A DNA stretch of 64,000 nt from Streptomyces nigrescens (GTDB lineage: Bacteria; Actinomycetota; Actinomycetes; Streptomycetales; Streptomycetaceae): contig AP026074.1 in the NCBI GenBank assembly GCA_024349765.1, positions 434,001 to 498,000 of the forward strand, given 5' to 3'. How positions within the stretch are numbered: position 1 is the first letter of the stretch; every line of letters starts with the position of its first letter. The notes below the pieces were generated by a model, which did no database searches, was not told the DNA's origin, and saw nothing but the letters and a program-made list of their open reading frames with translations. This document shows positions 2,284-6,841 of the stretch, piece after piece. The translations under genes were made by a program, and so were the position numbers.

Positions 2284-2306
2284 TTGTCAGTGGGTCCTGT
2301 CATAGT
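2284..2306 (+). promoter_or_regulatory. RecA-NDp / PafBC-type DNA-damage promoter, probably leaderless
   Basis: TTGTCAGTGG at 2284-2293 is an exact match to the -35-side element of the RecA-independent DNA-damage promoter of actinobacteria, the motif recognised with PafBC. Seven bases later CATAGT (2301-2306) keeps the A at position 2 and T at position 6 of a -10 hexamer. Transcription would start about 7 bases on, at or next to the ATG at 2314, giving a leaderless mRNA; no Shine-Dalgarno sequence is visible. The match is by eye. Confidence 0.65.
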
Positions 2307-2313
2307 CGACGGC

Positions 2314-3168
2314 ATGACGACTCCGCTTGTGTGGGTGTCCGCCGCGCGCGGCTATGAACTGGCGCTGGACGGCACGACGTTGAGGTGCCGCAGGACCGAT
2401 GGACGGGACGTGAAGTCCCCGCCGAAGGGCGTGCTCGCCGACCCGGTCGGCGAGCGGTTCGCCGCGCTGCGGGACCGGTTGGTGCGGCATGAGGAGGAGT
2501 GCCGGGACACCGTGGAGTCGTGGTTGCTGAGCGGGGTGCCGGTGCCGGCCGGGCTGCTTGCCCGGATATGGCAGGATCCGGGCTGGCGGTCCTGCCTGGA
2601 GCATCTGGTGGTGCACACCGACGGGCGCACCGGGCTGCTGGTGGACGTCGCCGAGGACGGGCGGGTGTCCGTACGGGACGAGAGCGGCCTCCTGTACGGG
2701 CCGCCGGCCGGCGCCTCCGTCACGCTGCTGCACCCCGCCCTGCTCGGCGATCTCGGGCCGTGGCACCGCCTCCTGGAGGCGCATGGCGTCGCACAGGGCT
2801 GGGCGCAGCTGGACCGGCGGGTGTACCGACGGCCGGAGGGGACGGATCCGCAGGCGACCGGTATCGACGCCTTCGAGGGCGAGCCGTTCACGGCGCAGTG
2901 GCGTGCCAGGATGAACGCCCTGGAGAACGGCTTCGTCGTGCGGGGCGGCTTCGCCGTCGCCAAGTTCGCCGAGCGGTTTCTCCGGATGGAGGCGCGCTGC
3001 TGGGTGGGGGAGGCCGACCCCGGGGCGTCCGAGGAGGCCGGACGGCTCCTATGGGTCGACGAGGCCGAACATCCGGTAGCCGTCGGCACGTTGGGACCGG
3101 TTGCCTGGTCCGAGGGGCTGCGGATGGCGGAACTGATCTACGGGGGAGCGACGAACGATGACGCGTGA
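2314..3168 (+). CDS. Stand-alone DUF4132-type protein
   Basis: A 284-residue protein that begins MTTPLVWVSAARGYELALDG. Residues 33-80 (SPPKGVLADP, then LRDRLVRHEEECRDTVESWL and a PGWRSCLEHLVV segment) resemble the core of the DUF4132/MolR-like domain, normally the C-terminal part of a protein of a thousand residues or more; here it is a separate polypeptide. Function is unknown; in other bacteria DUF4132 genes lie beside MoxR-type AAA ATPases and vWA proteins. The start at 2314 is chosen because it fits the damage-type promoter directly upstream. It overlaps the next gene by 11 bases, implying translational coupling and a complex. Confidence 0.75.
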   Translation: MTTPLVWVSAARGYELALDGTTLRCRRTDGRDVKSPPKGVLADPVGERFAALRDRLVRHEEECRDTVESWLLSGVPVPAGLLARIWQDPGWRSCLEHLVVHTDGRTGLLVDVAEDGRVSVRDESGLLYGPPAGASVTLLHPALLGDLGPWHRLLEAHGVAQGWAQLDRRVYRRPEGTDPQATGIDAFEGEPFTAQWRARMNALENGFVVRGGFAVAKFAERFLRMEARCWVGEADPGASEEAGRLLWVDEAEHPVAVGTLGPVAWSEGLRMAELIYGGATNDDA

Positions 3169-6100
3169 AGCGCACGTGAGGGGCGAAGGGGGCGCCGCGG
3201 CGGCCGCGGACGAGCCGGCAGCGGTGCTGGATGCGGCGCTGGCGGCGGGGTTGGCGCCCGTAGGAGCGCCGGACGGGGAGCCGATCACCGCCCGGCGCTA
3301 CGACCATCCCCATCTCGGTGGGCGGCCGGTGGTCCGGCTGACCGGGCATGCGGTGGCGCCCGTCGAGGACCGGCTGCTGGCCGACCTCGGATTCTCCGCC
3401 CCGGAGGCCGGGGACCCGGTGGCGTCGGGGCAGCGCCCGCAGCCGCGCTACCCGGCGTGGGCGCTGGTGCACGACCTCGCGCACGCCGAGGTCGCGCTGG
3501 CCGCCGGGGTGGAGATGGCACGGGCCGGGCGGCTGGCCGTCCCCAAACCGGGGCCCGCGCTGGAGAGGTTCCAGGCGATCGCCGCGACACTTCCCGATGA
3601 CCACCTGCCCGTGTACTGGGAGGAGGTCGGCCGGATCTTCCTCGCCGCCGGGCGGGACAAACAGGCCACGATGATGTTCGGCCGGGCGCGGACGGCGGAC
3701 CGGCAGGCCACGGGGCCCGTCGCCGACCCGGCCCGGCGCCGCGCGGTGTTCCTGGAGTTCGCGCTGGCCGGGGCGCTGTCGGCCAAGGACATCAAGGCGT
3801 ACGTCACCGAGCTGAGCCGGCGGCCCGACCCCGTCGAGGCGTACCGCGAGCTGTGGGAGCTGGCCGTACGGCGGACGACGGGCGGGCTCGCGCCCTGGCC
3901 CGAGATGCTCAAGCAGATCGCCAAGCTCGCCAAGGCCGCGGGGCGCGAGGTCGTCACCGAGCACCGGCTGCTGCTGGAGGGCCTGGTGGACGCGCCGGCA
4001 CTGTGGCGGGTGGCGGACGGGTTCTGGACGGCGCAGCGCACGCTGCTGCTGCCCGTGGTCGCCGGTTCCGTCGTGCTGAAGCGGCGGTTGCTGTGGCGGC
4101 TGACCGCGGTGCCGCGCTCAAGGATGGACGCCTGGTGGTGCGCCCTGCTGGAGGAGACCGGCGCGCTGGACGAGCTGGCCGGTGATACGGGCAACTGGCT
4201 GTCCGCGATGCTCGGCCGGTACGGCGACCGCGGTGCCGCCGCCCCCGAAGAGCTGCTGCGGCTGGTTCCGGCGCTGGCGGACCGTATCCGGGAAGCGGGG
4301 ACGCCCGTACGGTTCGACGCCGGCGAGCCGGATGAGTACCACAGCATCGATGCCGTCGCCCTGTGCCGCTGCCTGGAGGCGGGCGTCCCCGTGGCGGACC
4401 CCGGCCCGAAGGCCTCGCTGACCAACTGGCAAGGGCCCGCCCGCGTCGATCTGCGGTCCCTCACCGACGACACCCGCTTCGGGCCGGTGCTGGCCCGGTC
4501 CGTTCCCACCGGTGGAGGCGAGTTCCGCTCCCTGTGGGGGACGAAAGCCCTGCGGCCCCTCCTGGGCAAGACCGTCGGCGCGCGACTTGGGCAAGCACGG
4601 TCGGGCGGCCTGGAGGACGCCAGGACGGCCGTGCGCTGGCTGGGCGAAAACATCCGAGCGGACATGCTGACGGGGATACCGGACCTGGCCACCCGGATCG
4701 AGGACCTCGACATGGTGACGCCGCTGACCCGTACGCTGCGCGCGGGCATCCTGGACGAGCTGGGCTGGGCCGCCCTGGACGAGGCCGCCGCCGAGCTCAA
4801 GGGCGACAGCTGGTGCTGGGCGAGCTGGCCCGTGCTGGTGGTGCACGACCGCAGAAAGGCCATGGCGATAGGGCCCGGCGGCCGCATCGCCGAACACCGG
4901 CTGCGGGTCCCGCGCGGAGCCGACAAGTTCGACTACGACGTCAAGGTCTTCTTCTCCGACGGCCAGTTCCTGGTCTGCCACTTCGTCAACGGCCGCCAGA
5001 TGCACTACTGGTCGGACACACCGGAGGAGCTGTTCTCCGTACGGCCCAGGCTGTGGGAGTCGCTCTACTACGAGCGGGAGCAGCTCGGCTACACCTTCAT
5101 GGCGCCGAGCGGACGAAGGTTCATGGGCCACAAGGTCCTCGGCCCCGGCGAGAAGCGGGTCGGTCCGAACGGCCAGATGTTCCACGACGGCCGGGACTTC
5201 TGGTGGCACGCCACCGACGAGCTGGACTCGCAGGTGCACCGCGTCGACCTGGCGACCGGTGAGCTGACCGACGCCGAACTGCCGGAATTCTTCGATCCGT
5301 CGCTGCTCGGCAAGGACGAGCATTGGCGCTTCGATTCCTCATGGCTGGCGCCGCTGCCGTACGGCGTTACGGGGTCACCGCTGGGCAGCGACGGCAGGCA
5401 CGTGGGGCTGCGCGTTGCCGAGGACCGGGCCACCGGACGGGTCCGCTATCACCGCATCGACGGCGTCCAGGGCGTGTTCGACGGGTCCGGCGGCACGGCG
5501 GTGTGGGGGCTGCTGGACATCCCGGGATCCGCGAAGCCACTGGTCCTGAGCGGGGGTCTCAGGCGGTACGACCCGGTGGTGGCCCGCGACGCCGAAACGG
5601 GCGAGCAGTACTGGGCGGCGCAACGGACGAACTACGGCTACACGCGCCACGATCCGTCCCCGGTGGCCGCCGGGACGCGGCTCATGCCGCCGTCCGCCTT
5701 CTGGCACTTCCTCAAGCCCCGCGATCCCGCCGGATCGGCGGCGCTGCGGGAGGTCTCCGAGGACACGGCGCGACGTCTGCTGAAGGCCGCCGCCACCTCC
5801 GAGGAAGCGCTGCGGACCGCCGTCGCGAAGCTGCTGCCCGAGGTCGGTCATCCGCTGCTCATACGGGGCGTCATCGGGTGCGTCCAGGAGGCCGCCGCAA
5901 CGGCCCGTTCCCACAACGCACTCCTGCGCCGCCTGAAACGCGTCGAGTACCCGCGGCTCAAGGTACGGGAACGGGATCTGGGCGGGGCGCTGGAGGGGCT
6001 GCTCAGCCGATACACCACCGGGGACGAGGGCGGGGTGGCGCAGATCGAACTCGCCTCGGCGTTCCTGGCCGGCACGATCGGCGGCGACAGCGGGAGGGAG

Positions 6101-6841
6101 CAATGGCGGGAGTACCCGAGTGCGGTCGACTGGACCGAGCTGCCCGGCCGGATCGGCGGTCTCGCGGTCCGTGCGGTCAGTGCCGTCACCGGCCCCGCAC
6201 ACAGCCGGGCACTCCTGCGGCTGCTCCGCTTCTGGGCCGTCTCGCCCCTCGCCGAACCCGGGCTGCAACGCGGTCTGTTGAAGGGCGAGGAGCCTGGCGC
6301 GGTGTCCGGGGAGAACGGCAGCCTGCTGCCGCTGCACAGCGCCATCCGTAACGGCTCGTGGGCCCGGTCCCTCGCCGTCGCCGACGAGGAGCTCTGCGTG
6401 TTCCTGCAACGGGGGACCGTGCCGCACCCCGACGGTGTCGTCGACATCCGTCCGGTGCCCGACGGCTGGGCCACGCCCGAGCGGCTCCAGCGGCTGGTGG
6501 ACGAAGCGGAGCGCAGCGGCCCGGTCCCCTTCGAGCCCGGCGAGGCCGACCGGCTCGCCGATGCCACCGGTCTTGACCGCGGCGCTGCGGCCCTGCTCCT
6601 GGCCGGTCTGCCGCACATCGAGGGCGAAGGCCGCGACTTCCTCCCCACGGCGGTCCGCAAGGCCCTGGACCTGAAGGTGACCGAAGCCCAGACCGGTCGC
6701 GACCGGCTGCTGCGGATACGCCCGGTCGCCCGGCTGGAGCTCTACGACGCCGCCATGCCCGACGACCCCGCCGACCTGTGGGACCAGGCCGCGACGGCCG
6801 ACCGGCTGGCGCGGGCGTGGAAAGAGGTGGCGCCTGGATGA
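3158..6841 (+). CDS. Large (1227 aa) partner of the DUF4132-type protein, unknown function
   Basis: No signal peptide or membrane segment. Residues about 80-430 are helical and repeat-like (PVYWEEVGRIFLAAGRDKQA resembles a TPR/HEAT unit). Residues about 540-830 are rich in short beta-strands and aromatic turns (DGQFLVCHFVNGRQMHYWSD, FHDGRDFWWHATDELDSQVH, FDGSGGTAVWGLLD), like a beta-propeller. The C-terminal 400 residues are again helical. The start overlaps the DUF4132-type gene by 11 bases. Large propeller proteins next to DUF4132 and MoxR/vWA genes have been described as parts of NTP-dependent conflict or chaperone-like systems, but no AAA or vWA gene is present here, so the role is open. 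Codon use is uniform and no frameshift is seen. Confidence 0.75.
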   Translation: MTREAHVRGEGGAAAAADEPAAVLDAALAAGLAPVGAPDGEPITARRYDHPHLGGRPVVRLTGHAVAPVEDRLLADLGFSAPEAGDPVASGQRPQPRYPAWALVHDLAHAEVALAAGVEMARAGRLAVPKPGPALERFQAIAATLPDDHLPVYWEEVGRIFLAAGRDKQATMMFGRARTADRQATGPVADPARRRAVFLEFALAGALSAKDIKAYVTELSRRPDPVEAYRELWELAVRRTTGGLAPWPEMLKQIAKLAKAAGREVVTEHRLLLEGLVDAPALWRVADGFWTAQRTLLLPVVAGSVVLKRRLLWRLTAVPRSRMDAWWCALLEETGALDELAGDTGNWLSAMLGRYGDRGAAAPEELLRLVPALADRIREAGTPVRFDAGEPDEYHSIDAVALCRCLEAGVPVADPGPKASLTNWQGPARVDLRSLTDDTRFGPVLARSVPTGGGEFRSLWGTKALRPLLGKTVGARLGQARSGGLEDARTAVRWLGENIRADMLTGIPDLATRIEDLDMVTPLTRTLRAGILDELGWAALDEAAAELKGDSWCWASWPVLVVHDRRKAMAIGPGGRIAEHRLRVPRGADKFDYDVKVFFSDGQFLVCHFVNGRQMHYWSDTPEELFSVRPRLWESLYYEREQLGYTFMAPSGRRFMGHKVLGPGEKRVGPNGQMFHDGRDFWWHATDELDSQVHRVDLATGELTDAELPEFFDPSLLGKDEHWRFDSSWLAPLPYGVTGSPLGSDGRHVGLRVAEDRATGRVRYHRIDGVQGVFDGSGGTAVWGLLDIPGSAKPLVLSGGLRRYDPVVARDAETGEQYWAAQRTNYGYTRHDPSPVAAGTRLMPPSAFWHFLKPRDPAGSAALREVSEDTARRLLKAAATSEEALRTAVAKLLPEVGHPLLIRGVIGCVQEAAATARSHNALLRRLKRVEYPRLKVRERDLGGALEGLLSRYTTGDEGGVAQIELASAFLAGTIGGDSGREQWREYPSAVDWTELPGRIGGLAVRAVSAVTGPAHSRALLRLLRFWAVSPLAEPGLQRGLLKGEEPGAVSGENGSLLPLHSAIRNGSWARSLAVADEELCVFLQRGTVPHPDGVVDIRPVPDGWATPERLQRLVDEAERSGPVPFEPGEADRLADATGLDRGAAALLLAGLPHIEGEGRDFLPTAVRKALDLKVTEAQTGRDRLLRIRPVARLELYDAAMPDDPADLWDQAATADRLARAWKEVAPG

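Follow-up and report, generated by a model that had tools for sequence, protein, structure and literature searches.

What links a gene for an uncharacterised DUF4132 protein to a promoter of a DNA-damage class, and to what larger system does the gene belong? The gene is the first of two in a 64,000-nucleotide (nt) stretch of Streptomyces nigrescens DNA (contig AP026074.1, positions 434,001 to 498,000 of the forward strand), here called the window; positions are counted from its first letter. The genome comprises 9.33 Mb in two contigs, and the window lies on the 1.07-Mb contig C2. The best overall explanation, with a probability of about 0.65, is that the two genes form a damage-induced bicistronic operon which encodes the recognition half of a MoxR-type remodelling machine. 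The evidence is a promoter element that recurs throughout the genome and before related genes, and the company which these genes keep in their relatives.

The promoter and its class

The promoter consists of the following features, all on the + strand:
2284..2292, RecA-NDp / PafBC-class element TTGTCAGTG (direct reading; genome-wide counts)
2293-2300, spacer GGTCCTGT, 8 nt (direct reading)
2301..2306, -10 hexamer CATAGT, 8 nt 3' of TTGTCAGTG (direct reading; columns of the homologues)
2313..2314, predicted leaderless transcription start, at or beside the A of the ATG (from the position of the -10)

The span TTGTCAGTG-GGTCCTGT-CATAGT thus occupies 2284-2306, and the ATG of gene 1 follows at 2314, 30 nt from the first motif base. 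Compared with TTGTCRGTG-N8-TANNNT, which we take to be the consensus of the class, 11 of the 12 fixed positions are matched; the mismatch is the C that opens the -10 hexamer. A reading made from the sequence alone (the sequence-only reading) had described an exact motif with a fitting -10; both are seen directly, the -10 beginning seven bases past TTGTCAGTGG. No CGAAC-GTTCG palindrome, in the form that we assume for it, is present between window positions 1901 and 2400. If transcription begins at 2314, the TTGTCAGTG element is centred at -26. A PafBC-specific -26 motif, and activation by single-stranded DNA, are reported for mycobacteria (PMC11804915); the S. rimosus recA form of the motif is quoted in PMC2375139, together with 67 S. 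coelicolor genes that have related motifs. A UV-inducible S. coelicolor gene (SCO6735) behind a RecA-NDp promoter is reported in PMC5087735.

Across the genome, the exact pattern TTGTCAGTG-N9-A-N3-T is found at 70 sites, 35 per strand; the reversed (not complemented) control pattern is found at none. Thirty of the 70 sites were inspected, and at 17 of them an open reading frame (ORF) of at least 80 codons (ATG/GTG) starts 29-31 nt past the motif start, against a mean of 1.7 per 3-nt bin elsewhere. The window site has this same geometry, which favours the start at the ATG of the DUF4132 gene that had been predicted for it. Ten downstream proteins, chosen partly for their recognisable look and hence a non-random sample, were scanned with Pfam: eight fall into families of DNA repair or replication, a ninth is a WGR protein that also has a beta-propeller, and the tenth has no match. 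The eight are an AlkZ-like glycosylase, DNA polymerase III delta, PolA (DNA polymerase I), O6-methylguanine methyltransferase (MGMT), UvrB, a RecD2-type HHH protein, a Y-family (IMS, dinB) polymerase and a protein of the uracil-DNA glycosylase family (ung, UDG). The genome also encodes an adjacent PafB/PafC-like pair (L217), one member with WYL and WCX domains and the other with HTH_PafC, WYL and WCX.

The 70 sites against none, the encoded PafBC pair and the repair genes behind other sites agree with the promoter class originally proposed. The window promoter almost certainly belongs to the RecA-NDp / PafBC class, and is very probably a PafBC-class damage promoter. On this sequence evidence, the operon should with high probability be induced by DNA damage; its damage regulation and PafBC dependence stand as a strong prediction.

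Elsewhere in the genome, three exact motifs lie within 3.4 kb (L014, L015 and L016; G000:C1:1746461-1749777), before the genes for the WGR/beta-propeller protein, the O6-methylguanine methyltransferase and uvrB. Another exact motif (L009; G000:C1:1484271-1484293, minus strand) lies before a WYL-domain gene, at 29 nt from motif start to start codon; this WYL regulator may therefore itself belong to the damage regulon.

The regulatory claim is made because of motif counts at the level of the genus. Homologues of gene 1 (E up to 0.001, some partial) are present in 124 of the 295 sampled genus genomes. The genus set consisted of 100 regions fetched from 146 matches, the window and six loci from a DUF4132 search; 106 of these 107 loci were scored (L155 has no N-terminal match). 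A second set held 80 named loci (L240-L319), the best 80 of 494 relatives in a search with an alignment of gene 2; a search for related loci with gene 1 alone found no relatives. Five of the 80 (L249, L251, L257, L258 and L289) had no usable match or lay at an edge, leaving 75. About 250 nt upstream were scored for the 12 fixed positions of TTGTCRGTG-N8-TANNNT, with random windows of the same loci and the reversed consensus as controls. The homologues are related by descent, and locus counts are not independent events.

In the genus, 99 of the 106 loci score at least 10, 88 at least 11 and 52 the full 12. Random windows reach 10 in 10 of 2019 cases and 11 in none of the 2019; the reversed consensus reaches 10 in none of the 106 loci. 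Among the named loci, 51 of 75 score at least 10 and 33 at least 11 (random windows: 9 of 1478 and 0 of 1478). In a separate run on loci outside Streptomyces, random windows score at least 10 in 5 of 889 cases and at least 11 in one. Scores of 11-12 occur outside Streptomyces in Saccharothrix, Umezawaea, Kitasatospora, Actinocorallia, Actinacidiphila, Actinokineospora and Streptosporangium, among others, often with TTGTCGGTG; forms of TTGTCGGTG also occur in class genomes outside the genus. At 83 distinct genus sites, no variation is seen at positions 2-5, at the -10 A or at the final T, and most spacer columns vary, the constancy of the motif columns being inflated by pre-selection of sites at a score of at least 10. 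Five genomes of one family (G310, G377, G445, G537 and G553) share a near-identical single site, TTGTCAGTGAATTT[GC]GTGATT[TC]T.

The motif also precedes DUF4132 genes of other architectures. The DUF4132 search gave 30 matches in genus genomes, including a second copy in the S. nigrescens genome itself. With G173 left out, 29 were examined; 28 of them, all but L226, show a site scoring 10/12 or more ahead of the gene, or ahead of the operon to which it presumably belongs. The genes concerned encode WGR-DUF4132 (L205), two other long forms (L206 and L208) and DUF4132-DUF7737 (L223), or lie behind a small ORF of about 130 amino acids (aa) (L209, L210, L220-L222), or are orthologues of gene 1. DUF7737 is only sub-threshold in the second S. 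nigrescens copy. This copy, a gene of 757 aa (L216:3126-5399; G000:C1 about 3304625-3306898), has TTGTCAGACC..TACGGT with its first base 30 nt before the ATG. The small ORF, of 121-130 aa and beginning like MGIVTFVDETTSG, is found before or near DUF4132 genes in L209, L210, L220, L221, L222 and L223 (minus strand), with the motif 29-31 nt before its start.

The gene pair and its relatives

The coding features, all on the + strand, are:
2314..3168, gene 1, DUF4132 protein, 284 aa (PF13569, AlphaFold2 model)
3158..6841, gene 2, 1227-aa partner, short form (ORF reading, comparison with relatives)
3455..4747, predicted helical-repeat region of gene 2, about residues 100-530 (secondary structure of the model, in which model residue + 20 = protein residue)
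4808..5620, predicted all-beta, propeller-like region of gene 2, about residues 551-821 (model, weak Foldseek matches)

Gene 1 matches DUF4132 (PF13569) at E 3e-17, with 63.6 bits against a curated cut-off of 27; the family named in the sequence-only reading is therefore correct, for the first gene of the two only. The AlphaFold2 model of gene 1 has a mean pLDDT (predicted local distance difference test) of 92.5 from 77 sequences. Gene 2 shares 11 nt with the end of gene 1, and its protein gives no match up to E 1 in Pfam, NCBIfam or PADLOC; PADLOC and NCBIfam yield nothing for gene 1 either. The gene 2 model (residues 21-1220; mean pLDDT 88.7 from 58 sequences) runs from helical repeats through an all-beta region to helices, and gene 2 is predicted from it to be a helical-repeat/beta-propeller protein. 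A sequence search of solved structures gives nothing for gene 1 and one chance-level match (E 0.85) for gene 2.

The relatives of gene 2 are mostly longer, at about 1500-1770 aa. In the alignment, a conserved C-terminal region of about 400 aa is absent from the window gene 2 and three close relatives; seven named gene 2 ORFs of the window clade measure 1223-1238 aa. The closest named relatives are from Streptomyces (best 80 of 494). A gene 2 match lies beside gene 1 in all 109 loci fetched for gene 1, although its best segment is only partial in L064, L075, L152, L154 and L230. In L152 and L154, the DUF4132 match and the gene 2 match share one long ORF in one frame, an apparent fusion. L064 (G180) appears to be a remnant, in which gene 1 residues 1-118 and gene 2 residues 1024-1223 match, the middle is seemingly missing and the motif still scores 11. 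Two tandem gene 2-like stretches stand behind a single DUF4132 gene in L279, L281 and L292.

Outside the window clade, a MoxR match lies downstream of the pair in 63 of 70 named loci (L250-L319, from the best 80 of 494). All except one of these 63 also have a DUF5682 match and 50 have a SWIM-like match; several others are cut by the locus end. Pfam identifies AAA_5 (MoxR), DUF5682 and VWA_CoxE in example loci; the SWIM-like query (from L289) has a CxC-CxH motif by eye and no Pfam match. Linkage to the MoxR/DUF5682/SWIM system is very likely a trait of the family. Among the window ORFs behind gene 2, as far as these were read, there is no MoxR, DUF5682, VWA or SWIM gene. The two-gene system suggested earlier holds in that the genes are constantly paired, and it widens: the two-gene form is a shortened relative of a larger cluster. 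Judged by sequence, the window unit is a reduced relative of the DUF4132 / MoxR-DUF5682-VWA-SWIM family.

The S. nigrescens genome has a module of its own from this family, with DUF5682 at C1:6867465-6870023. In this module MoxR and DUF5682 point leftwards, and SWIM and DUF5691 rightwards. Between the divergent pairs are two exact motifs; from the right-hand one it is 30 nt to the SWIM ATG. In the genus (best 30 of 65 DUF5682 matches), 24 of 30 have a site of at least 11/12 at the corresponding place and 18 of 30 have a divergent site too; MoxR itself was verified in the S. nigrescens genome only. Six loci (L323, L326 and L335-L338) have no motif in the 1.5-kb DUF5682 flank, L323 being cut by a contig end. 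The DUF5682 search also matches the named control genome, Deinobacterium chartae.

A candidate machine and its alternatives

The proposed mechanism begins with single-stranded DNA made by damage, which would activate PafBC as in the published mycobacterial work. PafBC would enable transcription from the TTGTCAGTG / CATAGT promoter by RNA polymerase carrying the housekeeping sigma factor. A leaderless mRNA beginning at the ATG at 2314 would then give the DUF4132 protein and a large predicted helical-repeat/beta-propeller scaffold, and these two would form the recognition half of a MoxR-type AAA+ remodelling machine. The motor half, MoxR ATPase and DUF5682 with SWIM and DUF5691, would come from the other locus, whose two promoters are of this class too; most of the relatives examined have the two halves in a single cluster. 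The chance that genes 1 and 2 work together with the distant MoxR module in this genome is put at even. The machine would most likely remodel or extract proteins at damaged DNA, as is suggested by the family of MoxR, by fusions of WGR to DUF4132 and by reports that related genes in other phyla are damage-regulated. Remodelling at DNA lesions as such is a tentative proposal by analogy, held with rather less than even confidence.

A number of observations weigh against this explanation. At the promoter, allowing one mismatch, the 64-kb window holds one site where 0.33 are expected and 28 of 100 shuffles reach as many; this is not significant, and the case for the site therefore rests on the genome-wide and comparative evidence. 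The search for the motif before orthologous DUF4132 genes that the sequence-only reading had proposed is positive in the genus; conservation is weaker in the subclade of the window itself, whose 14 rows (one species apparently counted twice) score 11, 8, 10, 10, 11, 11, 9, 11, 9, 10, 10, 8, 10 and 8. Nine of these reach at least 10 and five only 8 or 9; 13 rows have the estimated start 27-30 nt away and one has it 39 nt away. Conservation is also weaker in several other families: scores of only 7-9 are found in Nocardiopsis, Streptomonospora, Micromonospora, Dactylosporangium, Embleya, Marinitenerispora, Actinospica and Paractinoplanes. In other genera of the class, 3 of 18 fetched DUF4132 loci have a site of at least 10 (L207, L213 and L234; TTGTCA consensus), and the exact TTGTCAGTG motif is rare in most class genomes outside the genus, with 0-3 sites in 16 of 18.

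On the same side stand points about the proteins and their partners. Foldseek finds no solved fold below E 0.001 for the model of gene 1 (best E 0.013, template-modelling score (TM) about 0.2) or for that of gene 2, whose weak matches include many beta-propellers; no activity can therefore be named. MoxR, DUF5682 and SWIM-like matches are found in none of the 10 named window-clade loci (L240-L249, with L249 a short contig), and cooperation with the distant module is therefore assumed. A VWA gene was not identified at the S. nigrescens MoxR-DUF5682 module. The link to LexA regulation in E. coli presumes that molR is the yehF-yehH-yehI region. Finally, the M. smegmatis PafBC motif seemed not to be conserved in S. 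venezuelae, a question that PMC9380542 leaves open; the count of 70 exact sites to none speaks for the presence of a PafBC-type motif in the genome studied here.

The alternative that survives best is that the short two-gene form has been repurposed and functions with no MoxR motor at all; the pair might, for instance, bind DNA or proteins in damage tolerance. It is suggested by the window clade, which lacks both the C-terminal region of gene 2 and neighbouring MoxR genes. This loss may, however, only reflect the separation of the two halves, and a MoxR-DUF5682 / SWIM-DUF5691 locus with promoters of this class has been retained in the S. nigrescens genome; repurposing is considered unlikely.

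Slightly less probable again is a damage-triggered conflict system, anti-phage or altruistic, of the MoxR-VWA ternary type, with the window genes as a reduced or regulatory version. MoxR, VWA and a large third component resemble the ternary conflict systems (PMC8195603), the Pfam bpMoxR family gives sub-threshold matches to two of the MoxR proteins, and gene 1 homologues are patchily distributed in the genus. Against this, no effector or effector-associated (EAD) domain has a Pfam match in genes 1 and 2 or in the cluster genes of the few loci scanned. PADLOC, run on genes 1 and 2 only and not on the cluster genes, matches neither, and DUF5682 is more widespread than a typical defence island would be, being present in 39 of 41 genus genomes.

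That the site is a chance or decayed motif, with the operon driven by another promoter, is very improbable. Several close relatives do have a degenerate motif and the site is unremarkable within the 64-kb window alone, but the genome-wide excess, the exact 30-nt geometry and the conservation of the motif before homologues at 30-40% protein identity oppose it. Regulation of molybdate metabolism, after the E. coli name MolR and a suggested molybdopterin role quoted in PMC8533742, is rejected, since the molybdate genes moeA and moeB were not differentially expressed there and related genes in other phyla are reported to be damage-regulated.

The explanation as a damage-induced recognition half gives a widespread, uncharacterised gene set a concrete, testable role. 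It also bears on the existence of a PafBC-type response in Streptomyces, a matter that an initial motif search in PMC9380542 did not settle. Separate reports on molR and LexA, on the D. deserti SWIM-MoxR-VWA operon and on DRA0166, taken with the actinobacterial promoters, suggest a shared machine for the damage response. If this is true, one machine stands under at least three unrelated damage regulators, which would imply a general repair or lesion-clearing function.

Comparison with known systems

The known RecA-NDp / PafBC promoters (SCO6735, S. rimosus recA and the mycobacterial regulon) are like the window promoter in TTGTCAGTG, in the 8-nt spacer to the -10 and in a geometry that fits leaderless transcription; repair genes behind other sites are a further likeness. 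The excerpted accounts of this promoter in Streptomyces name no DUF4132, DUF5682 or MoxR target. In the proteome of an M. smegmatis pafBC mutant, MoxR1, MoxR2 and a von Willebrand protein are 1.6-1.7-fold lower (PMC5656591); these need not be of the same MoxR type, and the result carries no weight here. In the open-licence literature, DUF4132 appears in three papers and no mention of DUF5682 or DUF5691 was found, and among the matches listed no title joins YehL, MoxR and YehP, or WGR, MoxR, von Willebrand and DNA damage, or SWIM, MoxR and DNA damage.

The MoxR-VWA ternary conflict systems (VMAP, iSTAND and TERNS3) share a MoxR AAA+ ATPase, a VWA protein and a large third component with the wider family. 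They differ in that the excerpts of PMC8195603 mention neither DUF5682 nor SWIM nor DUF4132 among their components.

In E. coli, the yehF-yehH-yehI-yehK-yehL-yehM-yehP-yehQ region has adjacent WGR, DUF4132, AAA_5 (MoxR), DUF5682, VWA_CoxE and SWIM genes, like the wider family. YehI differs in that DUF4132 is the C-terminal part of a 1210-aa protein, and in its regulator. Gene 1, at 284 aa and with DUF4132 only, does not have the YehI-type (MolR) architecture of about 1100-1220 aa with a C-terminal DUF4132. By hhalign, it aligns with the DUF4132 part of YehI-type proteins at E 4.7e-5 and probability 68; gene 2 shows no relationship to four YehI-type proteins. The 300 nt before E. coli yehI contain no good LexA box (best 6/8 core positions), and immediately ahead of yehF there is a match of 7/8. 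Across the 20-kb locus, however, the four top matches listed all reach 7/8, so LexA regulation in E. coli is taken from the literature, where molR is listed as LexA-regulated (PMC11039860, PMC4576408) and as an SOS gene (PMC3978071).

Deinococcus, known here from publications, differs in its control by DdrO/IrrE, and Deide_18730 is said to be without homologues in other Deinococci. It is alike in having a SWIM-MoxR-VWA operon and a DUF4132 gene under a damage regulator. The D. radiodurans drA0165-drA0166 operon (DUF4132 in DRA0166) is strongly upregulated on DdrO depletion (PMC8533742). In D. deserti, the SWIM protein Deide_18730 has a radiation/desiccation response motif (RDRM) and more than tenfold radiation induction (PMC5552922); its gene is the first in a putative operon of five, which includes MoxR and VWA genes (PMC2669436). 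The chances are slightly better than even that DUF4132, the helical-repeat/propeller partner, MoxR, DUF5682, VWA and SWIM form one ancient damage machine which has been wired separately to LexA, DdrO and PafBC.

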